Source: Iphinoe sp. HA4291-MV1 (GTDB lineage: Bacteria > Cyanobacteriota > Cyanobacteriia > Cyanobacteriales > Nostocaceae). From it: a DNA stretch of 64,000 nt. The notes under the pieces are model-generated. The model was not told where the DNA came from. It was given only the letters and a program-made list of their open reading frames with translations, and did no database searches. Both the position numbers and the translations under genes were made by a program. Below, in pieces: positions 123-36,141 of the stretch. The stretch lies in contig JAHHHH010000033.1 in the NCBI GenBank assembly GCA_019359415.1, positions 1 to 64,000 of the forward strand, in the 5' to 3' direction. The number at the start of each line of letters is the position of its first letter. Positions within the stretch are counted from its first letter, which is position 1.

Positions 123-332
123 CTATGATTGATACCCCGGTGTTTCTTGGGCATCTCCAACAGCAATTGCTTGGGGTATCAGGATGTGGATTGCGCTAAC
201 CTCGTCAATCGAATACTGCCCTACCTCTTTTGGAAGGCAGACAACTGGAATACCAGCATCAGCTAAAGTTTCTCTTAATGGTTGCAATCTTTGAGAAATG
301 GCTATATCCAAAGCAGATAATTTAAGAACCAC
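123..332 (-). CDS. Short phage-type protein, probably truncated
   Basis: This 69-residue product overlaps the 3' end of the preceding minus-strand gene by 11 bp, as expected in a phage morphogenesis operon. The N-terminal pattern (a helix with 'RLQPLRETLADAG' followed by 'VVCLP') resembles the start of Mu gp37-like neck proteins, which are normally 140 residues or more. The ORF stops next to the inverted repeat at 85-120, so the C-terminus may have been lost to a rearrangement. Two copies of the element octamer (130 and 174) lie inside it. The family link is weak. Confidence 0.45.
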   Translation of the reverse strand: MVLKLSALDIAISQRLQPLRETLADAGIPVVCLPKEVGQYSIDEVSAIHILIPQAIAVGDAQETPGYQS

Positions 333-756
333 CGAAGTAACGCCTCGTATATTCGCTGAATATCCTATTTAATTCTCGTATATCTGCATTAGAAAAGCCC
401 ATAAATTCACGTTTTGGCATCTTTAAAGTACCGCGCTGATGCCAGATTGCATAAGAAGTTGCATTACGGATAATTGCGCTATCTCCTTGAAAAAGAACAC
501 TTGTGGAATTAGACATAACTCCGGTTTCAATCAAAATTGTTGAGAAACCTTTTCGAGCTATTGTTGCAGGCTTAAGGGGGGTCCAAGAAATACCATCAGG
601 GCTAGATTGCTTGCTGAAATTATTCCTCGTGCTCACCAATTGATACTCAACCGCCTGCCGCAAAGGGATAGACACACCAAAACCTCTTTGCTTAGCTAAA
701 AGCTGTTCCAACTGACGGAAATCAAAACTGACATCAAACACTTTTAATCCCTCCAT
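322..756 (-). CDS. Phage virion morphogenesis / tail completion protein
   Basis: The 144-residue product matches the pattern of the Mu gpG / P2 gpS tail-completion family. It has an N-terminal helix, then 'DGISWTPLKPATIARK', an 'LIETGVMSNS' segment, and near the C-terminus 'YAIWHQRGT', 'KREFMGFS' and a closing helix. This family caps the tail tube and joins it to the head. It lies in a tight minus-strand run with overlapping neighbours (23 bp with the upstream gene, 11 bp with the downstream one). Length is usual for the family. The assignment comes from motif recognition. Confidence 0.75.
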   Translation of the reverse strand: MEGLKVFDVSFDFRQLEQLLAKQRGFGVSIPLRQAVEYQLVSTRNNFSKQSSPDGISWTPLKPATIARKGFSTILIETGVMSNSTSVLFQGDSAIIRNATSYAIWHQRGTLKMPKREFMGFSNADIRELNRIFSEYTRRYFGGS

Positions 757-1138
757 GCGTGTTGTATGTCACTTGAAGCGTAACCTTCTCACCTAGAATC
801 TCTACAGTCAGGGGAGAAACACCACTTTGTCCTATAGAAGTCACACGACATGTACAAGCACGCCCATTGATGATACCCAGCCCTATGTCTCCTACCTTAA
901 TTTCCTTGGGAAGAACAATAGGGTCTACGCAGTTACACTTGTAATTCTCCGTAGAAAACGAACCCTGTTCGCGTGCTTCAGAATTCCCGCCTTGGGGTTT
1001 AATCTTGAATTTCACCGGGATACTCTGACCTGTTGTCTTGACTAATCCTCTCTCATCCCGGTTGTTTTGTGTCGTAACGACATTAAACACAAATGTAGTT
1101 AATTGAAAAAGCTCTTCATCATCATAAACGGTGGACAT
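734..1138 (-). CDS. Hypothetical virion-operon protein
   Basis: This 134-residue protein has no family I recognise. The ATG at 1138 is preferred over an in-frame TTG at 1150, because the latter lies inside the palindromic repeat at 1144-1156. The C-terminal half is rich in beta-type sequence and has Cys pairs ('CNC' and 'CTC'), and it reads like a small beta-barrel virion protein. It heads the short run that includes the tail-completion gene, so a head-tail or tail role is likely by context only. Confidence 0.55.
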   Translation of the reverse strand: MSTVYDDEELFQLTTFVFNVVTTQNNRDERGLVKTTGQSIPVKFKIKPQGGNSEAREQGSFSTENYKCNCVDPIVLPKEIKVGDIGLGIINGRACTCRVTSIGQSGVSPLTVEILGEKVTLQVTYNTHGGIKSV

Positions 1139-1143
1139 TTCAC

Positions 1144-1156
1144 TGACCAATGTTTA
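1144..1156. promoter_or_regulatory. Border palindrome copy 1 (TGACCAATGTTTA)
   Basis: One of about 11 dispersed near-palindromes of consensus TAACCAATGGTTA. This copy lies directly upstream of the start codon at 1138, with one mismatch in the left arm. Confidence 0.55.
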
Positions 1157-1182
1157 ATGAACTAACAAAAATGCGAGAAAAT

Positions 1183-1219
1183 TTAAAACCCTCTTTTACT
1201 TGATAAAAGAGGGTTTTAA
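1183..1219. terminator. Bidirectional rho-independent terminator
   Basis: A perfect 16-bp stem (1183-1198 with 1204-1219) closes a 5-nt loop. It has A/T tracts on both sides and the AACCCTCT/AGAGGGTT core seen in other terminators of this element. It follows the ribbon-helix-helix gene on the minus strand. Confidence 0.85.
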
Positions 1220-1235
1220 GCTTATCGTAGCTTTT

Positions 1236-2359: not shown

Positions 2360-4870
2360 ATGAATACACAGCAAGTACTTTCTAACGGGAAAGCTCAAGT
2401 TTTATTGTCTTTTGATGTATCTTATAACAAAGCTTTATGTGTAAAACTACTTGGGCATAAACCCACAGACCTAGAAACAGGAAAAGCTCAGAAGTATTTC
2501 ACAAAAAATGTCGGGATAAAAATTTTTACTTCAATTTCCGAATTTGCAAAATTTTTATCTGAAGGGCATACTTTTTATACTGGAACTTTTAAAGAAGGCT
2601 CAACATCAGCAAAAATTCCGAATGTAAGTCATAGTAATGTAATTTTTTATGATTTTGACTCTTCGGTACAAATGGAGGAAATTTTAAAACATCCATTTGT
2701 ACAAAAGTACGGAGGTATCATTCAACCATCTTATAATGCAGATTTAACTAAAATACTGAAATTTCATCTTTTATTTTTTACCAATCGCTCTATTAATACA
2801 GAAGAATATAAGATTCTTTGGAAAATTGGAGCAAAAGCTTTAGGATATGAACTTGATCCAAGTAAGAAGGGTGCAAACAATCTTTGTTACGGCAGCCCTC
2901 ATAAACCTATTATTATCAATATGGTTTCCCGTCTCCCTGTTGATACCCTTCTTGCCCAAGAGGCTAAAGAGCAAGAAGAACAGGAGAAACAACAGGCTCA
3001 ACAAACTTCTGGAGTTCCGAAGACAACTGAGGTACTGACTAACCAAGTTTTAAAACATCTTTATGCCCATGTTTTTGAAGAAAAATTAGACAGAGATATA
3101 AACAAATTATATTGTTTACATTCGCATAATCTGATACCCACAGAGTTGACAGCTTTGGATAGAGCCGAGGGTATCAAAGAGAAGTATGAGGGGTCCAATC
3201 CTTTCTCACCAACGGATGCTAGCAAGCGTTCGTTTGTTGTATCTGTTAAAGAAAATCAGTTACCCGGTTTTTTTGATAGGTCCAATAATTTTGTTTCTCT
3301 GAATTCCGAGGGGAAGGAAAGGCATGGAGACAATTTTTTAAGATATTGGCATGAAATGCATCTTAAAGCTAAAGTCTCACCTTATCCAGCAGATTTTAAA
3401 CAGGTTTTTAAACAAGTTGTTAAGGACATCTGTAACCATTTTGATGTTGAAACTTTTGATTTTCGGAAAAAAATTGACTTAGATGTCGTGACTGAATTTC
3501 TCAGGGGACAGTTAGACAGAAAAGTTTTTAAACCTCAATGGGAGAATAATGTTGTGTTCATGTATGACGAAAAATGCAATACATGGAATTATCGACAAAA
3601 AAATGACAACATTTATTCTGATGTTCTTTCTCCCATCATTCACCAACAATTTGGACGAGAAGTAGCTGAAAATTTTAAAGTTCAGAAGCATGTAATGACT
3701 TGGTTCAATGTCGTGCATTGGGATTGTTTAGTTTCTCCTAAAATTGAAAATTTGGACTACATACCGTTTATCAAAGGTTACTATGACCTAAAAAATTATC
3801 GGTATGTTGATACCCCTTCCGAGCATGTCTTTAATTTGTCAAGAGTTGAATACAGTTATCAAGAAGTTTCTGATAATGACCCCGTTCTTCTTGCTTTTAA
3901 ACAACACTTTAAAGATTGGTTAAAAGAAGATATCCTTGCTGAATTCCTTCTTCTGTGGACGCAATTGTGCTGTCAGAGGCAAGCCTATAGAACTGGAAGC
4001 ATGGTAGGTCTTATCGGTGACCCGAACACCGGAAAGAGTACTTATTGTATGTTTCTTCTCGAACTCTTCGGTTCACAAGGTCTTAGCTCTATGGCAAAGT
4101 CTTTGGATGCTGATACCCTTATGAGCAAATCAAATAATCACGCAACAGCATCTTTAGAGAATGCTTATGTCGTTGTTTTAGAGGAGATGGTAGGAAATTC
4201 TAACTACACAGACATTAATAAATTAAAAGCATTTACAGGACAGCGTAAAGGTATTCCAAGTTCAGTGAATCCAAAAGGGTTTAAAGAGCGCCCAGTACTT
4301 CATCGTTTAGGTTTGGTCTGGAATAAGCAAGATATGGTAAATGTTCCTGGAACAGACGCAGGGTTTTTCCGACGAAATTTAATTTTAGAGTTCAAAACCA
4401 AAAAACACTTTAATCCAAAAACTGGAAAGACTTTTGATTTTCTTCGACAAGCAGAAAATCTCTTAAAAATTTATTGCTGGTGTATTCAACAGAGTATTGA
4501 AAAAGCTCTGAACAGAGTGGAAGAATTAAAGGACCATAAGATTTTTCAAGAGTTTAAAGTAAGAGTCAGAATGGAGAATTGCTACATAGCTCAATGGTTG
4601 GATGAAATGGTTAACATTACAAATCTAGAAACCGATTTTGTGTCAAGTTCTGACCTTCAACAAAGCTATGAGCAATGGGCTGAACAAAATAAGGCTACTT
4701 CATATGGTAAGAAAAAATTCTTTGTAGAATTCAAAACAATTGCGTCAGATAAAACCCTCGGTTTTGATTGGGATGAAAAAGATAGTGTTACGAAAACGAT
4801 TAACGGAGTCAAACAGCGAGGGTATACGGGAGTAAAATTTAAGGTCGAATCGGAAACTTCTGGATTTTAG
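2360..4870 (+). CDS. Primase / SF3 helicase (D5-like replication protein)
   Basis: This 836-residue protein combines an N-terminal primase-polymerase-like region with a C-terminal superfamily 3 helicase. In the first half, 'VIFYDFDSS' and 'ILKFHLLFFTNR' resemble archaeo-eukaryotic primase motifs. In the second half, Walker A is 'GDPNTGKST', Walker B 'YVVVLEEM', and 'LGLVWNKQD' matches the SF3 sensor motif. Such proteins start replication of phages and plasmids by melting the origin and priming. The ATG at 2360 follows 'TTGAGGTAAC', a Shine-Dalgarno form used repeatedly in this element. It lies next to origin-like repeat A and has its own promoter and terminator. Confidence 0.8.
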   Translation: MNTQQVLSNGKAQVLLSFDVSYNKALCVKLLGHKPTDLETGKAQKYFTKNVGIKIFTSISEFAKFLSEGHTFYTGTFKEGSTSAKIPNVSHSNVIFYDFDSSVQMEEILKHPFVQKYGGIIQPSYNADLTKILKFHLLFFTNRSINTEEYKILWKIGAKALGYELDPSKKGANNLCYGSPHKPIIINMVSRLPVDTLLAQEAKEQEEQEKQQAQQTSGVPKTTEVLTNQVLKHLYAHVFEEKLDRDINKLYCLHSHNLIPTELTALDRAEGIKEKYEGSNPFSPTDASKRSFVVSVKENQLPGFFDRSNNFVSLNSEGKERHGDNFLRYWHEMHLKAKVSPYPADFKQVFKQVVKDICNHFDVETFDFRKKIDLDVVTEFLRGQLDRKVFKPQWENNVVFMYDEKCNTWNYRQKNDNIYSDVLSPIIHQQFGREVAENFKVQKHVMTWFNVVHWDCLVSPKIENLDYIPFIKGYYDLKNYRYVDTPSEHVFNLSRVEYSYQEVSDNDPVLLAFKQHFKDWLKEDILAEFLLLWTQLCCQRQAYRTGSMVGLIGDPNTGKSTYCMFLLELFGSQGLSSMAKSLDADTLMSKSNNHATASLENAYVVVLEEMVGNSNYTDINKLKAFTGQRKGIPSSVNPKGFKERPVLHRLGLVWNKQDMVNVPGTDAGFFRRNLILEFKTKKHFNPKTGKTFDFLRQAENLLKIYCWCIQQSIEKALNRVEELKDHKIFQEFKVRVRMENCYIAQWLDEMVNITNLETDFVSSSDLQQSYEQWAEQNKATSYGKKKFFVEFKTIASDKTLGFDWDEKDSVTKTINGVKQRGYTGVKFKVESETSGF

Positions 4871-4982: not shown

Positions 4983-5002
4983 TCTGTGTGGGTATCAATC
5001 GG

Positions 5003-5255: not shown

Positions 5256-5897
5256 CTATCTGAAGACTAGAGTGCAAAGACAATTAGCCCGACAAGAACA
5301 TTGCTGTCCAGGAAGAGGCAATTGACCAATTCCTACCCAATCTTGATTTGCATATCGTATACACTCTTCACAGTGTTCTGCTTGTCCCAAGAGACGTTTC
5401 ATTTGCGTCTTACCGGACATCGCTTCACGCTTAAGTTGAAGGGTATCAGCAGTAAATCGTCCTGCTTTAGCGTAAAGTTCTAATCTGTGCGTCACCTGAG
5501 CTAGTGATTGACCTGGAGCTTCTTGAATTAGATACTTCAGCCCAAATTGTTTACCTGTTACCTCGTCACGCCCTTGATAGTATTGCTTTTTCAATAAACT
5601 ACCAATTTGACCTAAATCAGACTCGGTTAAACGGTCTACACCTCCAACGGATAGAATAGCGTGAGAAACATGGATACGTTTGAGGGCATCAGCTAACTCA
5701 ACTGATACCCCTAATTTACAATTTTTAATGTTTGTGGCAAGGCTAACAAATTTTTTCTGTTGTTCTGCTAAATACTTACGTTGTAAGACCAACACAGATT
5801 CTCTACTGACAAAACGGCGGGTGTCTTTCCAACGGTATCGCTTAACAGCAGAGTCGAAGAAGATTTGTGTTGGAAGAATTGCGTCAAGAGAAAGCAT
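5256..5897 (-). CDS. Phage head-morphogenesis-like protein with a Cys cluster
   Basis: This 213-residue protein starts with 'VKRYRWKDTRRFVSRE', like the 'RYRxxxGRFVS' linker motif of phage minor structural proteins. Its middle is helical. The C-terminus has a cysteine cluster ('HCEEC', 'CSCRANCLC') with a 'LPLPG' turn, as seen at the end of Mu gpF-type minor head proteins. It is the last gene of the run that contains the portal gene, which supports a head or neck role. The family call is tentative. Confidence 0.55.
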   Translation of the reverse strand: MLSLDAILPTQIFFDSAVKRYRWKDTRRFVSRESVLVLQRKYLAEQQKKFVSLATNIKNCKLGVSVELADALKRIHVSHAILSVGGVDRLTESDLGQIGSLLKKQYYQGRDEVTGKQFGLKYLIQEAPGQSLAQVTHRLELYAKAGRFTADTLQLKREAMSGKTQMKRLLGQAEHCEECIRYANQDWVGIGQLPLPGQQCSCRANCLCTLVFR

Positions 5898-6212: not shown

Positions 6213-9098
6213 CTATTCTCTCGTTAATATTATACCCACAATGAAATTAAAGTGTTCAGGGTCTTTTTGATATAACCGTTTCATTGCTATGTGACTATGA
6301 AAATGTTCACCCCCCATTGCTACAACTTCTGTAGTTCCATTAAACTTATTCCCGTAAATCTTTCCCACATAAGGATTTATAAATTTTCCGGGAAGAGCAA
6401 ATTCATTAGCTTCATAATTTTTGTTTCCAGTTATTATTCTCAATTGTTCTTCATATTGTGATGTAGCGCGACTGTTTCTAAAAGCGTTAGCTGCTTTAGT
6501 AACATTTTCACTTCCATATTCAACATGGTGAAAAAATTCATGTAAATGTGTTGATTTTTCATACACATTACCCACATCAATGACTTTAGTTAGCTTGCTA
6601 GCATAAGCTCTATCATCATCAGCAAGCATAAAAGTAAGGTTTTTTGACCCTTGTCCACCAGTTAACTGAAAAAATTCTATTTGATTCTGTCGAACAACTT
6701 TTCTTACTTCTTCATTTTGAATATTCTTTAAATTTATTTGATCAACAAGTTTAGTTGCTTCTTCTACAGATATACCTCTCTTTATCAAATCTTGTCTTAA
6801 ATTATTAAAACCTTCATCAACTTTTTTATTTCTCTCCAGTATAAAATTTGTATATTCTTCTCTTGCTTTTTCAGATGTCATTTCAGCTTCTTTTAAATCT
6901 TTTAATAAAACTTTCTTTCCATTGATTTTCTCATTTTTACTTCTAGCTGCATTTATCTTTATATAGTTATCATAAGCATCTTCTTTCTTTGTATACAAAG
7001 CTTTCTCTTCTTCTTTTCTAAACCAAGTGTCATCAATGTGTTTTTTAGTCAACTTATTTCCTGTTTTTATTAAAGAGTTATAATCCGAACGGTCCGTATT
7101 TTTGACTATTTCAGTTAATTCTTCGTCAAGAATTTTCTTCTTTGTTGTTTTCGGTTTACTAGGCTTTGGTTCTGGTTTTGGCTCCTTAATTTCTACTTTC
7201 TTTGTTCTTCCAGTTTCAAAATGTTTTTTTCCTTCAGGATGATTACGGATAGCCTCACGCCATGATTCCCGTTTTTGTGCGTTCTTAGGCTTCTCAATCC
7301 CATGTTTTTCAGCTATCGCTTTTAGTTGAGCGAGATTTGTTTTGGAAGTGATTTTTTCAGTTGTTGTCGTTGTTTTTTTACCCGTACTACCCCCGGAATT
7401 TGCACCTCCACAGGCAGTAAATCGTCCATTGGCATCTCTGCAAAGATTTCCTTTTACCTTTTGCCCACCTTTCCCTTTGTCTAAATTTAATGAATCTTGA
7501 TTTATTAAATTTTGTAATTCCTGAGTAATATTTACAATATTTTGATAAGTATCCAAAGCATTAGGATTTTGAACAAGATAAGCTTCTTCAGCTTCTTCTT
7601 CAGATTGATATCCCACTCCATAAATAAATCTTCCATTATCTTGAATTTCAAAAATTTTTGTTTCAAAGGGGAGGGTATCAATATCAATATCTTCTGCCTT
7701 TGCAAAATATTTTTTATCTATAGAATCTTTTTGATATTTCTTTTGTAAAATTTCTTGAGCAATCTTAAGAATTTCATCTTCAGTTATCTCTGCTAATCTG
7801 TCCCACTCGGCATCCGCCAGATTCACAGAGTCTGTTTGTGTTATTTGAGGTTCTTGTGGTTCCGGGGACAAATTAGCTTTTCTAAATGCCCCATCATTTA
7901 AAGCAATATTGAGCGTAAATTTATCCCCCTGATACCCCTCTCTTGCTTCTTCAGGAGTGATGACACCTGCGGTGATAAGCTTGGCTGTGCGGTCGGCAGC
8001 CTTCCCCTCTAGCTCAGCTTCTTCCATTGGAGTCATTTCAAATCGGAAAGGGATTTCCACGGTGAGGGTATCATCAGGCATCCAGACAACAAACACCTCT
8101 TGATAATGTCTCAACCACTGATTAACCGTCCAAGTGTGGCATCGTTTTGCCCATAAGAAACGCTGAACTAGTTGGTTCTGTGTCCCACTTCCAAGGGAAT
8201 TTTTAGGGCTATCCTCAAAAAGAATATCGTAAGGGTAATCAGTTTCAGAAACGAACAAATCCTTAATTTCTAAAACGACTTCTCGGACCCCAGCAAGTGT
8301 TTGAGAAATAAAATTTATAACCTCAGAATCTTTATCGTAAGCGATTAATTTTTCAACCGAACGATTAGCATTAACTGAAAGTAAACGATGTAGGATTTGG
8401 TTTCGACCTTTTTCACTCACAAGTTTATCAGCTAGTTTATTGATTCCAATTGTGAGGTAAGAAATGTTTGAAAGGATATCTCTAACTAAATTATTGCTTT
8501 GAATATAGTTGTTATAAGTTTGATATAACCCAACAAGAACAGAATCAGCATAATTTACGTTTTCGGGGTTTTGCTCTTTTAAGTAATTTTTTTGCCCAAC
8601 CCACCGACTTATTTTAGATTTGTGAAATCTAATTTTTTCCTCTTTTCCAACATAAAAGTCACCTTTGAGTTTTAAATCAAAATGAATCTCATAACCACTT
8701 AGTTCAGAATTTGGTTTGATTGGTTGGTTATCATTTGTGTCATCAAATTTTAAAAGTAAGTATACTTGAGCATATAATCGAGCAAAAATTGAGGCATTTT
8801 CAAAAGCGTTAAGAAGGATATCATCATTTTCATTAACAATAGTCCCATTCTTTCGTTTCAGTTGATACCCTAATGTTTTGGCTTCCGCAGGATATCGAGT
8901 AATTATTTTTCTAATTAAATTAGAGCTACGAAAAAGCGTTGTAATGTCTTCTGTTCCAAGAAGAGTTTTATCGTCGTCCCAAATATTTTTCTGTTTAAAA
9001 TTCGGATTGAAACTTCCATTAAACATTCTAAGGACTTCAAAAAGCCCATTAGAATCTTCATTCAAATCCTGTTCTTGTATCCCCGTTTCGGTAACCAT
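6213..9098 (-). CDS. Phage portal protein fused to a C-terminal zinc-metallopeptidase-like domain
   Basis: This 961-residue protein has an N-terminal half of about 400 residues with the layout of DUF1073/SPP1-type portals: an early 'FRSSNLIRKIITRYPAEAKT' segment, long helices, and 'LSNISYLTIGINKL'. Portals form the DNA channel of the head. A Lys/Glu-rich linker (about 580-680) follows and includes a SAP-like stretch ('LAQLKAIAEKHGIEKP'). The last 180 residues contain 'LHEFFHH' (HExxH at 853-857) and a downstream Glu near 924, as in zinc peptidases. The start overlaps border palindrome 3. At 961 residues it is about twice the length of a plain portal. It may be a maturation protease or a delivered effector. 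Confidence 0.65.
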   Translation of the reverse strand: MVTETGIQEQDLNEDSNGLFEVLRMFNGSFNPNFKQKNIWDDDKTLLGTEDITTLFRSSNLIRKIITRYPAEAKTLGYQLKRKNGTIVNENDDILLNAFENASIFARLYAQVYLLLKFDDTNDNQPIKPNSELSGYEIHFDLKLKGDFYVGKEEKIRFHKSKISRWVGQKNYLKEQNPENVNYADSVLVGLYQTYNNYIQSNNLVRDILSNISYLTIGINKLADKLVSEKGRNQILHRLLSVNANRSVEKLIAYDKDSEVINFISQTLAGVREVVLEIKDLFVSETDYPYDILFEDSPKNSLGSGTQNQLVQRFLWAKRCHTWTVNQWLRHYQEVFVVWMPDDTLTVEIPFRFEMTPMEEAELEGKAADRTAKLITAGVITPEEAREGYQGDKFTLNIALNDGAFRKANLSPEPQEPQITQTDSVNLADAEWDRLAEITEDEILKIAQEILQKKYQKDSIDKKYFAKAEDIDIDTLPFETKIFEIQDNGRFIYGVGYQSEEEAEEAYLVQNPNALDTYQNIVNITQELQNLINQDSLNLDKGKGGQKVKGNLCRDANGRFTACGGANSGGSTGKKTTTTTEKITSKTNLAQLKAIAEKHGIEKPKNAQKRESWREAIRNHPEGKKHFETGRTKKVEIKEPKPEPKPSKPKTTKKKILDEELTEIVKNTDRSDYNSLIKTGNKLTKKHIDDTWFRKEEEKALYTKKEDAYDNYIKINAARSKNEKINGKKVLLKDLKEAEMTSEKAREEYTNFILERNKKVDEGFNNLRQDLIKRGISVEEATKLVDQINLKNIQNEEVRKVVRQNQIEFFQLTGGQGSKNLTFMLADDDRAYASKLTKVIDVGNVYEKSTHLHEFFHHVEYGSENVTKAANAFRNSRATSQYEEQLRIITGNKNYEANEFALPGKFINPYVGKIYGNKFNGTTEVVAMGGEHFHSHIAMKRLYQKDPEHFNFIVGIILTRE

Positions 9099-9104: not shown

Positions 9105-9464
9105 ACCAACTACCATAACTGCTATATCCAAATTTCCGCCTAGTTGATTCAGTAAGTCATCCACAACAAAGCCTGGTGGAATTACAGCCCCATCTGGAGG
9201 AGGATATTTGTCATATCCTGCTTGCATATTCAGCAATCCTTCGATAACAAAATCCTTCTTTTGATATTGAAAAGATACATCATCAGCACGGTTAATGGCT
9301 TGATAATGTGTCCAAATAAGAAAAGCTGCCACAAAGTATGGACGGTAGCCATTTGACCCTTTACTTGCCTCTAAGAGGTCTTCGAGGGTATCAACATTGA
9401 CCCTCGGATTGAGAAAGTTTTTAGCTATGTTACTAGCTTTGTCAATATCATTTATTGGGTTCAT
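9102..9464 (-). CDS. Hypothetical virion-operon protein, 120 residues
   Basis: It overlaps the preceding gene by 4 bp and ends 4 bp before the portal start, so it belongs to the structural operon. It has helical segments ('VDTLEDLLEASKGSNGYRP', 'YFVAAFLIWTHYQAINRAD') and a Pro/Gly-rich loop ('YPPPDGAVIPPG'). This could be a head-tail connector, judged from length and position. No family is recognised. Confidence 0.5.
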   Translation of the reverse strand: MNPINDIDKASNIAKNFLNPRVNVDTLEDLLEASKGSNGYRPYFVAAFLIWTHYQAINRADDVSFQYQKKDFVIEGLLNMQAGYDKYPPPDGAVIPPGFVVDDLLNQLGGNLDIAVMVVG

Positions 9465-22240: not shown

Positions 22241-22269
22241 CTGATACCCACCCCCAAAGTGGGTATCAG
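22241..22269 (-). terminator. Hairpin built from two inverted copies of the TGATACCC octamer
   Basis: CTGATACCCAC (22241-22251) pairs perfectly with GTGGGTATCAG (22259-22269). It lies between two minus-strand genes. The downstream T-tract is weak and not immediate, so it could be a terminator, an RNA-processing site or a protein-binding site. Confidence 0.55.
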
Positions 22270-24736: not shown

Positions 24737-25141
24737 TTATTTTGTATATTTATCATAATTTAGTATCAATTCATGCCATTCAGCTTGGTCTTCGCAGACA
24801 AAAAAGATAAATCTATCTCTTGAAGCCCTAGAAGCCTTAGCATGAATTTCAGGAATCTCTAGATAGTTATCGTCTTTAATATAGTTATATTCTTTCAATA
24901 AATCTTGCCAAGCACCAACTCTATTATCTACATCAGGACGACCACGACCAGCAATAAAAAAACGAAAAGAGAGACAATAAAATTTCTCAGGCATCTGAAA
25001 ACCAGTACCTCTCAATATCCGAGCCGTTTGTTGTTGCCATTCGCCATAAGACCCATTTTTATAATGAGTTATATTTCCAGCTTTGCCCTTCTTACCACGA
25101 GGCTTAGAGACGACTTTAATAGGCAGGTCCACAATAATCAC
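24737..25141 (-). CDS. RusA-like Holliday junction resolvase
   Basis: This 134-residue protein shows the RusA-family pattern. An early strand ('MIIVDLPIKVVSKPRGKKG') is followed by 'FRFFIAGRGRPDVDNRVGAW', whose Asp-Val-Asp-Asn supplies metal ligands, then 'DLLKEYNYIKDDNYLEI' with the Asp-Asp pair. RusA proteins cut four-way DNA junctions, and phages use them to resolve recombining or replicating genomes. Length is usual. It is coupled to the XRE regulator by an ATGA overlap (25138-25141). Confidence 0.75.
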   Translation of the reverse strand: MIIVDLPIKVVSKPRGKKGKAGNITHYKNGSYGEWQQQTARILRGTGFQMPEKFYCLSFRFFIAGRGRPDVDNRVGAWQDLLKEYNYIKDDNYLEIPEIHAKASRASRDRFIFFVCEDQAEWHELILNYDKYTK

Positions 25142-25356
25142 AATTCAACTCCTTTAGATTCCAAATATTGAAGAATTTTGAGAAAATTTGCAAGACTTGT
25201 GGATTCAAAATTTCGAGATTCCCAACGAATAATTGACTGTGTTGATACCCCCAACGTTTTAGCTAATTCTTCTTGTGTCACGTTAGCTTTTGAACGAGTT
25301 CGTGACAAAGTCTGAGAGATATAAAGAAGTTTCTCAGAAAAATGCGAGAATTCCAT
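25138..25356 (-). CDS. XRE-family helix-turn-helix regulator
   Basis: This 72-residue protein contains a clear Cro/CI-type HTH ('VTQEELAKTLGVSTQSIIRW'). It lacks any C-terminal domain, so it is a short Cro-like repressor. It is co-transcribed with the RusA-like resolvase. It could bind one of the dispersed element motifs, which is untested inference. Confidence 0.8.
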   Translation of the reverse strand: MEFSHFSEKLLYISQTLSRTRSKANVTQEELAKTLGVSTQSIIRWESRNFESTSLANFLKILQYLESKGVEL

Positions 25357-25451: not shown

Positions 25452-26909
25452 CTACAAAGGCAACGCTTCTAATTCAGCCTGAAACTCTTGTAACCCTTGT
25501 TTGTATGGGTCAAGTGAAACGTCAGTACGAGGAGGGGTATCAGGTTTCTTTCCCCTCTTTGTATCTGTAAGTTTTGCAAGAGAACCAGAAACCAGAGTAT
25601 CGTATTGCTTACTTAATTGTTCACACTGTTTTTTCAACAGTTTAAATTCTTTTCCTTCTGTACAAATTTGCTCTACATGATTCTTTTGCTCAAACAAAGG
25701 CATAATGTATTTCTCATGCCACTGAATATAAGCTTCTAAAGCTTCAGTAGAAAGCCCATAATTCCCAAGGATTGCATTATCAATTTTTGCGTAATTGATA
25801 GCAATATTTTCAGCCACCCCTTTATTCTTTTGAAGAGATTCTATAGGGCGCTTGCGAACTAATTCCACAATAGAAGTAGTCTCATCAAACGTTTCATCAA
25901 GAGTTGGATATTTTTCTTCATCTGCATCCGTCTTCACGTTCTCAGGAGTTTCCTCTTTTAATTTCTTAGCCTGGTCTATCCCCCTCAAACTTGCGAAATA
26001 ACTATCTACATCTTTTGATTGAATTCGAGAATTTGGAGTCAAATCACGTAGTTTAATAAACGTTGTTTCCAGCGTTTCTACTTCAGGATTTAAAACCCCA
26101 GCTTCAACGGCTGAGTTATATCGTTGGTCCACTAGAACAGCAGTCCGCCACGCAATGAAATTATTTTCTAAAAGCTCGTGAGCTACACTAGGCAAATTTG
26201 CAACCTTACGGTAACGACCAAAATCAACTTCATTCAAACCGAAAAGCATACAACAAGTCTCAGTAGCTTTCTTTCGTGATTCCCTCTCCGCTAATTCTTG
26301 AGAGCGGTATAAGCTATACAGATTTTCCCAATGCCGGTCCGCAGCTTTAGCTGATTGAAGAAGTGTATGTTTTGTAGTAGTGTCATTTAGGCTCTTCTGA
26401 AGCCACAAAAGTGTACTTTCATCAGGTTGAGTATCAGAAAGGAGATATCGAACAGGCACATCTTCAAAAACAAGAGGAAGAGACTTATGATATTCAATTT
26501 GCTCTTTTACTTTCTCTGTAAGTTCCTTATCAATCTCAGAATCCCCGTGTTTAACCTTCCCTTCCTGATACCACTTTTTTAGATAGGGATTCTTTTTCGC
26601 CTGTTTGAGAGCTTCACAACGAGTTGTTCCATTGATAATGTACTCGACACCCGTCTCAGGATTTTTCCATAAAATAAGCGGCTCAATAACGCGAAAAACA
26701 ATTGTAGACTTCTCCTCACCCGGATAATTAACCAAAATTCTCAGAGCTTTTACCATCTCTGCGACAGCTTCATCAGAAGGTTTTTCTCTCAAGTAAATAC
26801 CTTCCCCCAACTCTGATAAAGGCTTAAGCGTATATAAATGCTCAAGAGATAGGGAAGTAGTAGGAGAAAAAGTTAACTTTGGTTGAATTAAATTTGTTGT
26901 ATTAGCCAT
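25452..26909 (-). CDS. ParB-like protein (ParB/Srx N-terminal domain)
   Basis: The N-terminal 170 residues of this 485-residue protein carry a ParB-type core, with 'EYIINGTTRCEALKQAKK' corresponding to the GxxRxxA nucleotide-binding motif. A central helical region (about 180-300, 'LFGLNEVDFGRYRKVANLP') could hold a DNA-binding HTH. The C-terminal part (about 390-450) is coiled coil. ParB proteins bind centromere sites and load sliding clamps; related phage proteins are nucleases or regulators. There is no adjacent ParA. It is a candidate reader of the repeated palindromes. The leader carries AGGTAACAAC before the ATG. Confidence 0.65.
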   Translation of the reverse strand: MANTTNLIQPKLTFSPTTSLSLEHLYTLKPLSELGEGIYLREKPSDEAVAEMVKALRILVNYPGEEKSTIVFRVIEPLILWKNPETGVEYIINGTTRCEALKQAKKNPYLKKWYQEGKVKHGDSEIDKELTEKVKEQIEYHKSLPLVFEDVPVRYLLSDTQPDESTLLWLQKSLNDTTTKHTLLQSAKAADRHWENLYSLYRSQELAERESRKKATETCCMLFGLNEVDFGRYRKVANLPSVAHELLENNFIAWRTAVLVDQRYNSAVEAGVLNPEVETLETTFIKLRDLTPNSRIQSKDVDSYFASLRGIDQAKKLKEETPENVKTDADEEKYPTLDETFDETTSIVELVRKRPIESLQKNKGVAENIAINYAKIDNAILGNYGLSTEALEAYIQWHEKYIMPLFEQKNHVEQICTEGKEFKLLKKQCEQLSKQYDTLVSGSLAKLTDTKRGKKPDTPPRTDVSLDPYKQGLQEFQAELEALPL

Positions 26910-28004: not shown

Positions 28005-28400
28005 AGTGCGAACTGTTCTCCAACCGTTCTAGCTGAGACTCCTCCCCGTAGGGGTTTCAAAGGTTGTGGAACATGTGGTGTCTGAAGTGTTCTAAAAAGT
28101 GTTCTGACTTCAAACATAGATACAGTAAGTCTTCTAGCTTCTGTAGAACACTTCATTTATTACTATATATACTGTATAAATAGAATAATAAATATAATAA
28201 ATGATAATAATATATCAATAAGAGAAAATATATATATATATATAGAGCTATAGGGAAGACCTGTGCAAGTGTTCCAGGGGTATTTTTTCGGTTAAAACCC
28301 TTGCCCCGTATAGGCTTTGTGTAGAACGTATGGAAGGGTATCACCTGTGCCGAAAAGTTCCAAAAAACGGAACAGGTACTTTTCATCAGTTCCACTCTAA
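28005..28400. repeat. Origin-like repeat B, diverged copy of repeat A
   Basis: This segment keeps the order and spacing of repeat A: TGTTCT-type repeats, 'GAAGTGTTCTAAAAAGTG', the inverted GTAGAACACTTC, a long AATAATAAATATAATAAA core (about 28150-28250), 'CAAGTGTTCCAG', and at the end 'GGAACAGGTACTTTTCATC', a stretch identical to the end of repeat A. It lies upstream of the RHH/KilA-N/BRO-N operon. It could be a second origin, an incompatibility region or a recombination site. Confidence 0.55.
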
Positions 28401-28509
28401 GAAGTGGGTATCAGCAAGTGCCTAAAGCTGTAACCCTTTTCTCATAAGAGTTTCAAGTTTTTGCAAATTTTATTTGTCATATCGATATCGCTAGCGCTTT
28501 GATATGCAC

Positions 28510-28653: not shown

Positions 28654-28874
28654 CTGATTTAATTTTGAGAGAGTTCAATGGGTATCAAGTTAGACATCGA
28701 GAAGATAATTATTTATGTTTAACTGATATGGCATCGGCGACTGGAAAACGTTTTTACGATTGGGAAAGATTAAAATCGACAAAAGAATTAATTTCAGTGC
28801 TTTCATATAATAACGGGATTTCTCCAAATGATTTGATACAAACTAAACCCCACATACAGTCTACAAATATGTAG
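28650..28874 (+). CDS. Truncated KilA-N domain protein
   Basis: This 74-residue protein contains 'REDNYLCLTDMASATGKRFY' and 'WERLKSTKELISVLSYNNG', which match the first half of a KilA-N DNA-binding domain (dipartite phage antirepressor family). Intact KilA-N proteins continue for another 60 residues or more. The early stop suggests either truncation or a minimal form. It is coupled to the RHH gene upstream and followed by a BRO-N gene. Confidence 0.65.
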   Translation: MTDLILREFNGYQVRHREDNYLCLTDMASATGKRFYDWERLKSTKELISVLSYNNGISPNDLIQTKPHIQSTNM

Positions 28875-30272: not shown

Positions 30273-30441
30273 ATTCAGAAACCTTGCTAACCGGCATTTA
30301 GAGGGGTATCAGCCACATCGCTCTACGATTGTCCGTTGGTTTCAGCACGCAGCGAAGAGTTATGACCCTAAGCGTTTATATTCATTTCAAGAAGTAGCTT
30401 TAGTTTTTGCCTCTGCGAACACATTTCAACAAAAATGTCGT

Positions 30442-31313: not shown

Positions 31314-32432
31314 ATGGTAAATACAGTAGCAAGACCGGCGTCTGCAAAAGTTTCTGCTCCGATTGAAACTATCTTTTTGCGCGATGCTTTTGGGTCTTTA
31401 ATTTCTCCGGAACGTCTTTTAGATGTGGTTGGAGAAAGCGTGTGCAGTGAAGAAGGTATCAAGAGTGTGGTACCCATACAAGTTCTGACAGAACGTGAAC
31501 AAGCAATCTTTGCAGATTTAACGAATTTGTTTGGGGTGAAACCGACTAATGCAGGTTTTGTCACGTATGATGAAAATTATTCGTTCAAGTTTTTTAGTTA
31601 TCCCCGAATAGGGCTAAATAATGAAGGGCAATTAGGGTTACTCATTGGAGCTGATAACCAAGACGCTAATCATATTAGCGCTTTTGTTCCAATGGTTTAT
31701 AAGCCTGGAAAAGATGAGGACGAAGACGGTGAGTATTATCTTGGTAAAGCTCGTTGTGGCTTGGTTTCTATTCCTGATGAGATTGATAAAACGAAGTCTA
31801 AACATTATATTGCAATCAAGTCTAAACGTTTTATCTACAATATCAGCTTCAAACCCCAATCTGATTTAGACTTTAATCTTGTCCCCAGTGCTTTCCATAA
31901 CGGTCAATTTGACACCGTCTGTTCTGCTTTTCAAGGTTCTCTCGCGATAGTGAATAAAATGTTCACTAGTCTGTTCAAGAATGCTACATTCCCTAAAACA
32001 GGAGTCTTTCTCATTCTTAGCAATGGACAAATTACTGAAAATGAACACGACGGTAAAGTCTTAGTTTCTACGAGATGGCGGCTTTTAGCCAGTTCTCATC
32101 CAAATTTGTTAGTTGATGTTTACAAAAATCCTGCAACTCCACTGCGCGAAGTGTACAGTATTTCTTGTAATAATTCTTGCAAAGTGACTAAAGAGGTTCT
32201 TGCAGGATATAAACCAAAGTATTTTGGATTGTATATTGCTGGTGCTCATCCGAAGAATCCAGAATGGATTCCTGAACACTCTACCTTTACCGACCCTCGT
32301 TTTATCGCTCCAGCAATCAAGGTCAAATTTGCTCCATTAATCCAAAAACTAGCCGAATTGAAGGCTTCATCTGGACCAGATATCCGAGCGATCGCAGAAA
32401 GTATGGGCAATGACCCCTTAGCTGGTTTCTAA
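31314..32432 (+). CDS. Hypothetical protein of the replication module, 372 residues
   Basis: This soluble protein has mixed strands and helices and no motif I recognise. It is the first gene of a run that continues with the SF2 helicase and DNA polymerase. Its last residues ('RAIAESMGNDPLAGF') form a short tail ending in an aromatic residue, as in some phage single-strand-binding proteins, but that is a thin clue. It has the strongest promoter of the element and a structured leader, so it may be made in large amounts. It contains a HIP1 site near 32388. Confidence 0.5.
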   Translation: MVNTVARPASAKVSAPIETIFLRDAFGSLISPERLLDVVGESVCSEEGIKSVVPIQVLTEREQAIFADLTNLFGVKPTNAGFVTYDENYSFKFFSYPRIGLNNEGQLGLLIGADNQDANHISAFVPMVYKPGKDEDEDGEYYLGKARCGLVSIPDEIDKTKSKHYIAIKSKRFIYNISFKPQSDLDFNLVPSAFHNGQFDTVCSAFQGSLAIVNKMFTSLFKNATFPKTGVFLILSNGQITENEHDGKVLVSTRWRLLASSHPNLLVDVYKNPATPLREVYSISCNNSCKVTKEVLAGYKPKYFGLYIAGAHPKNPEWIPEHSTFTDPRFIAPAIKVKFAPLIQKLAELKASSGPDIRAIAESMGNDPLAGF

Positions 32433-32510: not shown

Positions 32511-33968
32511 ATGGAACTTAGAGACTATCAAGAACAAGCTGTAAACCGCCTTTTCAATGCGACTCAAAATACTTGCCGTCAGCTTCCAACTGGTGGGGGT
32601 AAGAGTTTCGAGATATATCACCTTGTCCAACGCAAACTACAAACAGGGGTATCAAGGATAGCTATCCTTGCTCCCAACCGCGAAATTATTGATACCCTTT
32701 TTTCATATTTCAAAGGAGGAGAGGCTACAAGAGCTTACACGGGTATGAAACCTGATTTGGATAAGAAAGTACTGCTCGCCACTTATGGCACGGCTAAAAA
32801 GCTCTTACCTGTGTTCGAGCCAGAGTTAATTCTTGTCGATGAGGCGGCACACATAGCTGCAAATGACCTTGGAGCAACGATTAAGAAGCTAAATGTGTTA
32901 ACTCACGGGTTTACCGCTACACCGAATCGCCTCGATGGCAAGGGGCTTAAAGATTTCTTCTCAGACTTGATACTTGCGCCCCCCATCCGTTGGTTCATTC
33001 AAAATAAGTATCTTAGCCCCTACTTTCTTCATGCGATTGAATGCCCACTTTTCAAGGATGCCAGCACAGATAATCTCAGCGTACAGTCATCAATTTTCGG
33101 GACTAAACCAGAAGTAGAAAAGACTGTCAAAATTTATTTCGAGAAGTGCAGAGATGAGAAGACACTCATCTTCTGCACTGGTGTGAAACATGCTATCGAC
33201 CTTCAAACTGAATTTGCTAAACATGGTCTTAACGCAGCTTTTATTCAGTCTAAAACACCGCAAAAAGAACGAAACGAGTTCTTTCAACAATTCAAAAAAG
33301 GTGAAATAAAAGTTCTTATTAATATACAAATCTTTGTGGAAGGGGTTGACGTGCCCAGTGTGCAAAATGTATTTTTGTGCCGGTTTACATACAGCACGGC
33401 TCTTCTGCTTCAGATGCTGGGTCGTGTCCTCCGTCGCGCAGAAGGTAAAAAAGAAGCGCATATTTTTGACTTGGCGGGAAACTGTTATTATCATGGTTCA
33501 CCTGATGCTGATTTTGATTGGTCGCTTCTTGGTCAATCCTGGAGACTAGAGGATAACAAGCAGACTCTACAAGTAAAGTGTGAGTGCTGCGGAAATGACC
33601 TTATCCATAAGAAATGGGTTACAGATTACATTGATATTTGTTGTATAGCTTGTCACACAGAAATTTTTGTTTCACCTACCCTTAGCAACACTCGAAAAGC
33701 TCAACAGTACTATGTTGGTAAGACATTTGATTTAGCAGAATTAAACGATTATGACCCCAAAATTGTTGCAGAGTTAACCTCATTAATACTCCAACAAAAA
33801 ACTAAGGGAAGAAGGAAGCTTAAATTAGAGCAGAAAATCACTAAAATACTGGCGATGGCTGTGCCAGACGCTCTTAAAAAACGTGCTTTGCTCCATCTTG
33901 GAGTATCAAAGAGTACCATTGATTTCTATTTTGATAATGAAGATGACGGAATCGAAGAAGTTAGTTAG
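32511..33968 (+). CDS. SF2 DEAD/DEAH-type helicase with a zinc-finger region
   Basis: This 485-residue protein carries the SF2 motifs in order: 'LPTGGGKS' (I), 'LVDEAAH' (II), 'GFTATP' (III), and in the second RecA fold 'QMLGRVLRRAEG' (VI). After the helicase core there are two Cys pairs ('CECCGN', 'CCIACH'), a likely zinc ribbon. Phage SF2 helicases of this type help replication fork restart and recombination. The Shine-Dalgarno is weak (GGAG about 14 nt upstream). It lies between a terminator and the palindrome/promoter of the polymerase gene. Confidence 0.82.
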   Translation: MELRDYQEQAVNRLFNATQNTCRQLPTGGGKSFEIYHLVQRKLQTGVSRIAILAPNREIIDTLFSYFKGGEATRAYTGMKPDLDKKVLLATYGTAKKLLPVFEPELILVDEAAHIAANDLGATIKKLNVLTHGFTATPNRLDGKGLKDFFSDLILAPPIRWFIQNKYLSPYFLHAIECPLFKDASTDNLSVQSSIFGTKPEVEKTVKIYFEKCRDEKTLIFCTGVKHAIDLQTEFAKHGLNAAFIQSKTPQKERNEFFQQFKKGEIKVLINIQIFVEGVDVPSVQNVFLCRFTYSTALLLQMLGRVLRRAEGKKEAHIFDLAGNCYYHGSPDADFDWSLLGQSWRLEDNKQTLQVKCECCGNDLIHKKWVTDYIDICCIACHTEIFVSPTLSNTRKAQQYYVGKTFDLAELNDYDPKIVAELTSLILQQKTKGRRKLKLEQKITKILAMAVPDALKKRALLHLGVSKSTIDFYFDNEDDGIEEVS

Positions 33969-34031
33969 TTGTCTACTCAAGTAAAGCAGCAATTTTGACC
34001 TGGATAAAAAACGATACTGGTGAATTTTCAC

Positions 34032-34044
34032 TAACCAATGTTTA
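34032..34044. promoter_or_regulatory. Border palindrome copy 11 (TAACCAATGTTTA)
   Basis: This copy abuts an 11-bp inverted repeat (AGCAGATGTTA at 34044-34054 with TAACATCTGCT at 34063-34073), which may be the terminator of the helicase gene. The polymerase promoter starts at the end of that repeat. Confidence 0.6.
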
Positions 34045-34072
34045 GCAGATGTTAAAAACGCCTAACATCTGC

Positions 34073-34101
34073 TTGACAGTGTTATATGTCAGTGCAATAC
34101 T
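34073..34101 (+). promoter_or_regulatory. Promoter TTGACA-17-AATACT with flipped operator box
   Basis: -35 at 34073-34078, -10 at 34096-34101. The last 14 spacer bases (34082-34095) read TTATATGTCAGTGC, the same orientation and spacing as in the promoter at 23841-23869. It drives the DNA polymerase gene. Confidence 0.7.
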
Positions 34102-34137
34102 TTAGCTATTAACCTTGAGTCTCTGGGGTATCAGCTA

Positions 34138-36141
34138 ATGTCTAATTTTCAATCTCCTCAATTTGTAGTTATTAATCCTGAAAGTTCTGAAGTTCTAGCA
34201 GCATTAGAGAAAACTAAATCCGTAGGATTTGACTTGGAAACGAGTATTAGTAAACCTCGTGATGGAATCATCAGATTATATCAACTTTATGTTCCAGAGA
34301 ATGACACAGTTTACATTTGGGACATTTACCATCATGATTTTAAAGGGTATTTTAGTTCCGATTTTCGCGCTTTCTTATCTTTTTTAAGTAATCCAAATAT
34401 TGAAATCAGAATTCACAATGTTCTCTTTGAGTATTCTTGGATTAGGGAAAAACACCAATTAAAAATCCAGAATATTCTTGATACCCTCGTTCTTAGTCAG
34501 GTCAAAAATGCTGGGTTATTCGAGGCATATCAGAAAGTAGGATATAGTGAACCGAATAGCCTAGAGACTCTTTCTGAACTCTATGGTTTAAACCTTGACA
34601 AACAGTATCAAAAGTATGATTACTCGGACCCCTCACCAATTACACTTGAGGTCTATCAGTATGCTGCAAATGATGCTAAAGCTACTTGGTATTTGGGTGA
34701 AGTGATTTCTCGACCAAAGCAAGACGTTGACCTTCGGGCGGCATCAGTTTTTGGAGAGTTAAACTATCGAGGAATTCCGGTAAATGTTCAAAAGTTAGTG
34801 CAACTTCTTGAACAGTATGAAGCGACTTGGAAAGATTTATATGAGCAGATTAAGGAGATAACAGAGTGTAATCCCAATAGTCCGAAGCAGCTACTTTCTT
34901 GGATTATTAATAAGTATGGAAAAGCTCCATTGGGGTATCATCGGAAAAAGAAAGCTATTGAAGCTTGTACTAAGAAATCTGCTGTTAATGACTTTATTTT
35001 TAAGCTTAATCAGCAAGGATTTGATACCACGACACTTAGGATGATTCAAGAGTACCGTTCGATTAAGAAGCGGAGCGATTATCCAAAAGAGTATTTAAGC
35101 AATCTCCATGAGGGGCGGATTTACGGGAATTATAAGGTCTTTGGTTTCCAAGGTGAGGGGCGTTCATCCTGTGCCAAGGCTAATATTCAAAACGTGGCGA
35201 AATCATCACCCACAACTAAGAAATATGGTTTATCATCGCTTCGTTCATTATTTGAAGCAGAGCCAGGTTGGACCTTTATTGAAATTGACCTTGCAGCGGC
35301 ACACGCTCAAATAGCTCGTGCTGTAAGTAGGGATAGAAAATTAGTTGAATCTCTTAAAACTGGGATTAAACTTCATTTCTACACTCTTCAAAGTATTCTT
35401 GCAAAACAGAATATTTTTATGAGTCCTGCTGAGATTAAACAAGCAAAAGCAAATGAGTCTCACCCCTATCATTTACGTATTAATGAGCTATATAAACTTT
35501 CTAAAAATGTGTATTATTCGTTTTTGAATTTTTCCGGTGCTACCACGCTTCAGGACACGTTTTCAAACGAAGATGTAATCATCGATGTAGACACGTGCAA
35601 AGAATATCTTGATGCTACAGCTAAAACATTTTCAGACTTACGGAACTTCCAAAAGAATCTTATCAAGCTTGTCGAGAATCGTTACGCTCCAAGATATGCA
35701 CCCAACGGACAGTATTTAGGACTTGTAAGTCAACTTTCTATGCCAGATGGGAGTATCATTCATTTCATTAAAGGTGGCAGAGGAGCGAGTAAAATCTGTG
35801 CTGCCGTTTGGCTTCGTGTAGAAGCGAGTGCGATTAAACAGAGTTTAATCAGCATTCAGGACATGATTGATTTGAACTTTGAAGATAGTGCTGAGATTGT
35901 GAACTTCTCACATGACTCTGTTCTTCTTCACGCTAAAGAAGAGGTTGCTCTCGACCTTGCCAACTTTGCTTATAAAGTGGTCAACAGAGATATCAGACAA
36001 TACGTGAAGGATTACCAACCAGAAGAAGAGTATCATTATTCTTGCTGGCTTCCTGGTCAGGAGCCAAAGAAAGGAGAATTGATTAATAAGACGGGATGGG
36101 TACATCTGGGGTACGAATTGAAAAAGAACTGGGAAGGTTAG
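34138..36141 (+). CDS. Family A DNA polymerase with 3'-5' exonuclease domain
   Basis: This 667-residue protein has an N-terminal exonuclease domain ('VGFDLETS' as Exo I; 'YQYAANDAKATWYLGE' near Exo III). The polymerase domain follows: 'EGRSSCAKANIQNVAKSS', motif A as 'IDLAAAHAQIARAVSRD', motif B region 'LSKNVYYSFLNFSGATTLQ', and motif C 'NFSHDSVLLHA'. Motif A differs from the usual DYSQIELR form. No 5' nuclease domain is present, as in T7-like phage polymerases. It probably replicates the element. Its 3' end overlaps the convergent HTH gene by 4 bp, which marks the element's right limit. Confidence 0.85.
   Translation: MSNFQSPQFVVINPESSEVLAALEKTKSVGFDLETSISKPRDGIIRLYQLYVPENDTVYIWDIYHHDFKGYFSSDFRAFLSFLSNPNIEIRIHNVLFEYSWIREKHQLKIQNILDTLVLSQVKNAGLFEAYQKVGYSEPNSLETLSELYGLNLDKQYQKYDYSDPSPITLEVYQYAANDAKATWYLGEVISRPKQDVDLRAASVFGELNYRGIPVNVQKLVQLLEQYEATWKDLYEQIKEITECNPNSPKQLLSWIINKYGKAPLGYHRKKKAIEACTKKSAVNDFIFKLNQQGFDTTTLRMIQEYRSIKKRSDYPKEYLSNLHEGRIYGNYKVFGFQGEGRSSCAKANIQNVAKSSPTTKKYGLSSLRSLFEAEPGWTFIEIDLAAAHAQIARAVSRDRKLVESLKTGIKLHFYTLQSILAKQNIFMSPAEIKQAKANESHPYHLRINELYKLSKNVYYSFLNFSGATTLQDTFSNEDVIIDVDTCKEYLDATAKTFSDLRNFQKNLIKLVENRYAPRYAPNGQYLGLVSQLSMPDGSIIHFIKGGRGASKICAAVWLRVEASAIKQSLISIQDMIDLNFEDSAEIVNFSHDSVLLHAKEEVALDLANFAYKVVNRDIRQYVKDYQPEEEYHYSCWLPGQEPKKGELINKTGWVHLGYELKKNWEG

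Follow-up and report, generated by a model that had tools for sequence, protein, structure and literature searches.

A scattered asymmetric octamer in a cyanobacterial phage-like element as a candidate set of primase initiation sites

Introduction

Okazaki fragment starts are usually set by words of 3–5 nt that occur everywhere by chance, and selection on their placement is therefore hard to see. The gene 4 primase of T7, a TOPRIM-type enzyme with sites of 3–5 nt that are very frequent by chance, has sequence-specific lagging-strand start sites throughout its genome. Here, we describe a longer word, i.e., the octamer TGATACCC/GGGTATCA, which is scattered through a phage-like element of the cyanobacterium Iphinoe sp. 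HA4291-MV1. The element spans position 1 to ~36.7 kb of the 64,000-nucleotide stretch that was analysed (referred to as the window; positions 1–64000 of contig C48, JAHHHH010000033.1), within an assembly of 7.36 Mb and 140 contigs (GCA_019359415.1). Comparison with related phage sequences leads us to propose that the octamers probably are initiation sites for the archaeo-eukaryotic-type primase (AEP) of the element, which would set the starts of its Okazaki fragments much as the T7 sites do, although enzyme type, site length and chance frequency all differ.

The closest described systems are two AEP enzymes that initiate at defined words. According to the cited passages, the primase-polymerase of phage NrS-1 recognises the word TTTGGTTA and uses GTG as well (PMC8718748), and the NrS-1 genome holds two copies of the recognition word, one per strand (PMC7102993). 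The window primase resembles this AEP-type phage enzyme in having a helicase domain and, if our proposal holds, an asymmetric 8-nt template word for initiation; unlike the two copies in NrS-1, however, the word is present in dozens of copies per strand, which in isolated phages are evenly spaced on each strand. RSF1010 likewise has one initiation site per strand, ssiA and ssiB (PMC4434180). As described there, RepB' of RSF1010 has an AEP fold, as the window primase is predicted to have, and initiates sequence-specifically on single strands, but its sites (one per strand) are 40 nt long, include a hairpin and work in a leading-strand mode, unlike what we propose for the element.

Scattered motifs of a comparable kind have been reported in cyanophages A-1 and N-1 (43 and 21 motifs, respectively, found via PHIRE and called asymmetric), where they were discussed as promoters or stoperators and had no consistent orientation relative to the genes (Chenard et al. 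2016, PMC4916379). These PHIRE motifs, with an 11-bp conserved block in N-1, probably belong to the same family as the present motif; the passages of that paper on the motifs do not deal with strand-wise spacing, a base switch or a link to a primase. The statement in a preliminary description of this DNA that no cyanobacterial phage motif of this kind had been described was thus not quite right. The motif goes unmentioned in the Elbi genome paper (PMC8297451), and among the matches listed, no publication containing TGACTCCGG, the form found in Elbi, is about phages. In the open-access literature that was searched, we found neither a link between such a motif and a primase nor many-copy, evenly spaced AEP initiation words.

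Results and Discussion

An asymmetric octamer is concentrated in the element

Exact counting yielded 49 copies of TGATACCC/GGGTATCA in positions 1–36140 and two in positions 36141–64000 (at 58069 and 62744), matching the by-eye figures of the preliminary description (about 49 plus two elsewhere), all 51 positions of which were right to within 6 bases. An order-2 Markov model predicts 0.96 copies over both strands of positions 1–36140, i.e., the chance level of about one per 36 kb that had been estimated, while an order-3 model predicts 2.2 (log10 p = –47). Moreover, among the 8-mers with at least eight copies in this part, TGATACCC has the highest observed/expected ratio. The assembly as a whole holds 279 copies, with 49 in the element (1 per 738 bp) and 230 elsewhere (~1 per 32 kb), and the reversed word, taken as a control, occurs 120 times across its 7.36 Mb. 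The earlier claim that the octamer occurs only in the phage-like element is correct within the window, but a further contig of the same genome, C130, carries eight copies in 19 kb.

Both orientations are equally common, as had been described. The 25 plus-strand copies are located at 130–137, 871–878, 2119–2126, 2941–2948, 3132–3139, 3808–3815, 4111–4118, 5703–5710, 7930–7937, 8863–8870, 10344–10351, 11294–11301, 12375–12382, 12657–12664, 13638–13645, 14737–14744, 17680–17687, 18608–18615, 20551–20558, 20711–20718, 22242–22249, 24358–24365, 25243–25250, 32690–32697 and 34479–34486, and the 24 minus-strand copies at 174–181, 2033–2040, 3169–3176, 4990–4997, 5441–5448, 7673–7680, 8066–8073, 9386–9393, 14473–14480, 18442–18449, 19642–19649, 20867–20874, 21295–21302, 22261–22268, 22587–22594, 24384–24391, 25535–25542, 28336–28343, 28406–28413, 28680–28687, 30304–30311, 32647–32654, 34126–34133 and 34933–34940. 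Pooled over both strands, their spacing is random (coefficient of variation (CV) of 0.96).

The word is sharply defined. Among its 24 single-base variants, only TGATACTC is strongly enriched (15 copies vs. 1.05 expected, spanning 641–36035 and starting at 641, 1528, 9724, 10527, 27809 and 27961 on the plus strand and at 1712, 12279, 15757, 17737, 26429, 29358, 33901, 35751 and 36028 on the minus strand), the other variants being near chance (27 vs. ~21 expected). A pyrimidine directly precedes the octamer in 43 of 49 copies. The preliminary description had placed the octamers in genes on either strand and in gaps, and 38 of the 49 indeed lie within the open reading frames (ORFs) that we selected (20 sense, 18 antisense) and 11 outside them. 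The ORF-located copies occupy all five codon frames free of an in-frame TGA, in both orientations relative to the genes, and the earlier view that this is not codon bias is upheld. HIP1 of cyanobacteria is an octamer that is likewise scattered through genes and gaps, but it is host-wide and palindromic (GCGATCGC), whereas the present octamer is asymmetric; only four copies of HIP1 are found in positions 1–36140, vs. 13, at higher density, in the right part of the window.

The motif family and its carriers

A tblastn search with the window primase against 50,697 phage records returned 11 records, seven of them from Nostoc, Anabaena or Dolichospermum phages. Six of these phages were analysed, i.e., A-1(L), N-1, Elbi, YongM, YongM2 and Dfl-JY23, with Nostoc phage A1 (KU234533) left out. 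All six carry an equivalent motif: a scattered asymmetric TGACTCCGG(GG) in Elbi, YongM, YongM2, A-1(L) and Dfl-JY23 (83–99 copies of the 9-mer each) and TGATTCCGG(GG) in N-1 (92 copies). The isolated phages have 36–52 copies per strand and the window element 24–25. From these sequences, the window octamer is best explained as an element-specific form of a motif family with the core TGAYWCC.

Further carriers of the primase were obtained by searches over 388 genomes of the order, 218 of the family and 388 of the class, namely a contig each of genomes G339 (same family) and G406 (same genus), contig C105 of the window's own genome, and a locus in genome G706 that is considered below; genomes G024 and G050 gave weak matches to the C-terminal part of the primase. 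Contig C130 had first been noticed by its motif. The leading word is TGATACC in C130 and C105 and TGATTCC in G339 and G406, all four contigs being possibly partial. Positions 1–36.8 kb of the window have nothing in common with C130 other than the primase N-domain (39% identity over 382 amino acids (aa)), an HTH gene and a short ORF overlapping the latter. A maximum-likelihood tree of the N-terminal primase stretches groups the three TGATACC elements in one clade (99/97) and the five TGACTCC phages in a second (97/97), to which N-1 is sister, with G339 and G406 on long branches. As a separate observation, C130 and C105 (loci L135 and L287/L288) have genes for a homologous primase, a tyrosine integrase and a TPS-domain-type protein arranged in the same order, which gives them the look of small integrative elements related to each other, possibly satellites of phages.

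No relative could be confirmed in a viral contig collection searched with the window portal, the window primase and two alignments, nor in genome contigs profile-searched with a further alignment. Neither in the viral contigs, among the matches listed, nor at 257 loci was clustered TGATACCC as dense as in the window element. At five of six of the denser loci (L022, L025, L053, L057, L089 and L211), the copies were one-stranded and within or close to one repeat-like cluster; the remaining one, L211, has seven copies in 13.9 kb, six of them on the same strand. Two arrays were noted in passing. Contig C40 of the own genome holds 12 copies of TGATACCC at steps of exactly 21 bp (24986–25224), which form a tandem repeat and have nothing to do with the scattered sites, and contig C234 of genome G253 (L123, L124) holds 11 regularly spaced copies (CV 0.33) of AGTCCTGA, all of them on the same strand.

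Even spacing of sites on each strand in the isolated phages

Spacing was examined over 65–69 kb per phage (three records being 0.4–1.9 kb short, and circular records being treated as linear). Sites on the same strand are evenly spaced in all six isolated phages (CV of 0.42–0.67 vs. 0.96–0.97 for random positions), with a mean interval of 1.24–1.76 kb, and shuffling the strand labels over the fixed positions gave p ≤ 0.00015 in each phage. Only 8 of 534 same-strand gaps are below 300 bp, whereas, of 266 sites on the plus strand, 131 lie no more than 300 bp from one on the minus strand. Neighbours on the opposite strand are thus ignored, which points to a reader of single strands, as a factor binding the duplex would have no obvious reason for such spacing. 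Strand-polar sites on both strands, at intervals useful for replication, are therefore found in the six isolated phages and weakly in the window.

With respect to transcription, 92 sites are in sense and 104 in antisense orientation, so that, as with the 20 and 18 in the window, no orientation with the genes of the kind expected from promoters or stoperators is apparent. In mycobacteriophages, stoperator orientation follows transcription. The count agrees with the published statement that the A-1 and N-1 motifs do not consistently follow gene direction (PMC4916379). A reading as stoperators or operators was suggested for A-1 and N-1 in the same paper; the scattered motif would then be bound by a phage repressor or a nucleoid-like regulator that controls transcription, by analogy with the cluster A mycobacteriophages. 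Such a reading would fit an asymmetric motif in many copies and the intergenic enrichment in Elbi, where 31 of 72 sites in the first 50 kb are not inside coding sequences that cover 90%, sites in the window being less confined to intergenic gaps. A candidate regulator also exists, as a double HTH_17 gene lies at the end of the element and beside the C130 primase. Nevertheless, we regard this reading as unlikely, given the absent orientation bias, the even spacing on each strand that is unexpected for operators bound as duplex, and the absence of an HTH_17 homologue from the six isolated phages (blastp at 1e-4, ~50 kb each).

An asymmetric word read on one strand might also act as a strand-polar signal for recombination or translocation (Chi-like or KOPS-like), read by, e.g., FtsK-like or helicase proteins, and the annotations of A-1(L) and YongM include an FtsK-like protein. 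KOPS-type signals show a strand skew towards a terminus, but the motifs are similar in number and evenly spaced on both strands. Moreover, the window gave no blastp match at 1e-4 to the A-1(L) FtsK-like protein, and C130, C105 and the G339 and G406 contigs gave none to this protein or to the helicase, which makes such a signal quite improbable.

Bases preceding the motif showed a preference of their own in the six isolated phages (L259–L264, L273–L278), with T at 43–67% in positions –7 and –6 vs. a background of 32%. It was noticed after a planned window of –11 to –8 had failed, and the window element lacks it.

A concerted base change in N-1

The motif of N-1 differs from that of its relatives, and the aligned sites were compared over ~50 kb of each phage, in five comparisons that share N-1. 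Elbi and N-1 are 74% identical in aligned blocks. Where Elbi sites align to N-1, the other eight bases are kept in 17 of 25 (vs. 14% of control 9-mers), and all 17 kept sites show a C-to-T change at position 4 (vs. 13% in controls). Likewise, 13 of 19 sites are kept in YongM (T in 13), 20 of 25 in Dfl-JY23 (T in 20), 12 of 21 in A-1(L) (T in 11), and 11 of 16 in YongM2 (T in 10).

The primase of N-1 has changed as well, being 42.5% identical to that of A-1(L) over 428 of 1033 aa, whereas the Elbi primase is 66% identical over 1031 aa. Other proteins of N-1 are about as close to A-1(L) as those of Elbi, i.e., helicase (81 vs. 79%), polymerase (78 vs. 80%) and baseplate J (77 vs. 84%). A genome-wide change of the motif alongside a change of the primase would be expected if the primase is its reader.

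These data also bear on the idea that a mutational or HIP1-like process without direct function spreads the word, for which it could be said that the host and the isolated phages alike are rich in HIP1, so that iterated words do exist there. However, the near-chance frequency of one-mismatch neighbours other than TGATACTC speaks against it, and the strand-wise spacing together with the retention of aligned sites indicates selection; we consider such a process highly improbable. That the octamer is a selected, element-specific site at the nucleotide level, as the preliminary description held, is thereby borne out, whereas replication priming, the function favoured by the comparison, was absent from its list of packaging, recombination, modification, coating and uptake.

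The motif accompanies an AEP-type primase

All 7-mers were ranked after dropping words that contain HIP1 (our choice). A TGA[CT][AT]CC 7-mer ranks 1–5 in 11 of the 12 elements that have the primase N-domain, vs. a rank of at least 337 in all 13 controls, i.e., the right part of the window, the phage contig C134, seven contigs with polymerase relatives and four other cyanophages (Fisher p = 3e-6, or 5e-4 with the 12 elements reduced to six lineages). By tblastn (E 0.01), the N-terminal stretches from these 11 elements (460 aa each) matched no control, with one exception, i.e., 65 aa at the end of the C130 stretch, in its helicase part, which matched S-LBS1. By blastp at 1e-4, the primase was the only family found in all 11 motif-bearing elements.

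Contig C134 of the same host has tail and portal proteins 28–55% identical to those of the window, no motif, and no primase homologue in its 17.8 kb; the contrast with C130 indicates that the motif goes with the primase domain and not with the tail genes. Relatives of the polymerase occur in 10 of 291 genomes (including the own), and the word is absent from the contigs, whole or in part, of seven of the nine others. In S-2L, S-LBS1, CL131 and kac65v151 (50 kb analysed for each of the latter two), and in Paenibacillus Bob, Lactococcus 1358 and Corynebacterium Adelaide, no comparable scattered word was found once HIP1 words were dropped (best log10 p of –11).

The primase-helicase itself (2360–4870, plus strand, 836 aa), which we propose as the reader of the motif, matches the PHROG DNA primase family (E 1e-62 over aa 192–827). 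It has an N-terminal archaeo-eukaryotic-type domain at ~aa 15–210 and a C-terminal NTPase/helicase-like part without a Pfam match. A model of the N-domain matches the folds of the S-2L PrimPol and RepB' (3h20, 3h25), and as far as this model goes, the domain has the AEP catalytic fold. AEP superfamily motifs are described as hhhDhD/E (I), His (II) and hD/E (III) (PMC5862659), and by eye VIFYDFD, KFH and YELD are candidates for these in the window primase; motifs I and II are also visible in the other aligned primases, motif III being uncertain in the A-1 group. The full-length model was poor (pLDDT 34) and was not used, and profile searches of PDB sequences with the N-domain gave no primase match.

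The shared gene also matters for a further reading, in which the motif marks programmed single-strand nicks like the localized single-strand interruptions of phage tf and its kin (PMC3517423). Such interruptions, known from that source, would explain a strand-specific asymmetric consensus at intervals along a genome, but no nickase was identified, the gene in common being a primase, and we consider nick sites very improbable.

Proposed mechanism and points to be weighed

The observations behind the proposal of primase initiation sites are the enrichment and sharpness of the word, its presence on both strands, its independence of transcription direction, the strand-wise even spacing in six isolated relatives, the conservation of sites together with the base change in N-1, the association with the primase and the AEP-like fold. 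In the proposed mechanism, the AEP primase-helicase that the element itself encodes would recognise a word of the TGAYWCC family in single-stranded DNA. The fork would expose the lagging-strand template, the primase would bind a properly oriented site, and a primer would be started there, so that the sites would fix Okazaki-fragment starts about every 1.1–1.5 kb per strand. We infer binding of the primase to the motif, the primer start and the template strand from the sequence comparisons. Each strand would need its own series of sites, which would account for a spacing on each strand that is independent of the other strand and of the genes.

Several results weigh against this proposal. The AEP initiation sites described so far occur in low numbers on a replicon, with one per strand in RSF1010 and NrS-1. 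In the window, TGATACCC alone is not regular along the strands (p of 0.34 against uniform placement and 0.54 with shuffled labels), and regularity is weak for TGATACYC (0.017 and 0.068) as well as for YTGATACYC (0.0045 and 0.015), a word picked after seeing the flanks; the element is perhaps an old provirus, or the site definition may be incomplete. A T-rich tract was not found in the pre-set window of –11 to –8 before the motif. The intergenic enrichment in Elbi would suit a regulator too, or it could just reflect the cost of sites in coding sequence. Genome G706 encodes a protein homologous to the primase N-domain (tblastn E as low as 9e-9), but TGAYWCC words are not in excess over 40 kb of it; initially placed among the controls, it was counted as the exception once the homologue had been found, and the Fisher values were recomputed. 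In the 6 kb around its primase gene (contig C1, ~371000–377000, L290/L291), CGATACC is the top 7-mer (7 vs. 0.36 expected, found post hoc), one base from TGATACC of the window; HIP1 occurs on both sides of and within this gene region, the element borders being uncertain.

Finally, the primase is not alone in having diverged in N-1, as the FtsK-like protein (62%) and thymidylate synthase (63%) have done so to a lesser degree, and the ParB-like protein is at 45.5% vs. 66–90%. Since this copy has diverged too, the base change does not set aside a reading of the motif as partition or coating sites for a ParB-like protein, whose gene is present in the window (25452–26909, minus strand) and in all six isolated phages. 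No homologue was found, however, in the motif-bearing C130, C105, G339 and G406 contigs (possibly incomplete), and a protein binding the duplex would have no reason for a spacing per strand; ParB sites are, in our view, quite improbable.

Beyond the initiation sites as such, our judgement leans only slightly towards a broader picture, in which this phage lineage hard-wires its lagging-strand replication through dozens of long, enzyme-specific primase words at near-regular intervals on each strand, the whole array being rewritten base by base as the primase changes, and in which C130 and C105, loci of the same cell with a related primase, have adopted this word too, perhaps being satellites with a common code. 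As the word is long enough that each copy must be maintained, the genome appears to record the spacing that the replisome needs on each strand. If true, every Okazaki fragment would have a genomic address, and the phages concerned, which were isolated on Nostoc, Anabaena and Dolichospermum, would offer a system in which lagging-strand priming, sequence reading by AEPs and the co-evolution of an enzyme with ~50–100 sites throughout a genome could be tested directly.

Other genes of the element and its surroundings

The contig starts at or inside the left end of the element. Its structural genes include portal, tape measure, P2-I-type tail, baseplate J and tail fibre genes, and it also encodes a Bro-N protein; the ORFs scanned included no recognisable gene for a terminase or major capsid protein. 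Alongside the primase-helicase, it carries a DEAD/ResIII-type helicase (32511–33968, plus strand; 43–44% identical to the helicase of the A-1(L) group), a family A DNA polymerase (34138–36141, plus strand), a function-unassigned protein common to the A-1(L)-group phages (31314–32432, plus strand; 33–35% identity) and a RusA-type resolvase (24737–25141, minus strand). The ParB-like protein is 24% identical over 344 aa to that of A-1(L). The double HTH_17 protein considered above as a regulator (36138–36719, minus strand) is encoded in C130 too and not in the A-1(L) group. Copies of this excisionase-like gene, with proteins ~81% alike, lie at 36138–36719 and 38986–39417 of the window and at 13948–14511 of C130, near tyrosine recombinase genes.

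The portal gene (6213–9098) has a C-terminal extension (~aa 778–957) that matches ORFs of other phages, one of them annotated as a metallopeptidase. Positions 1–125 of the window are 99.2% identical over 125 bp to the end of C134 (17770–17646), with divergence beyond, which suggests a possible shared attachment or repeat sequence. To the right of the element, positions 43346–59010 hold two giant ORFs (2650 and 2571 aa) with an adjoining radical SAM gene, the first of which has condensation, AMP-binding, KR and thioesterase domains (nonribosomal peptide synthetase/polyketide synthase).

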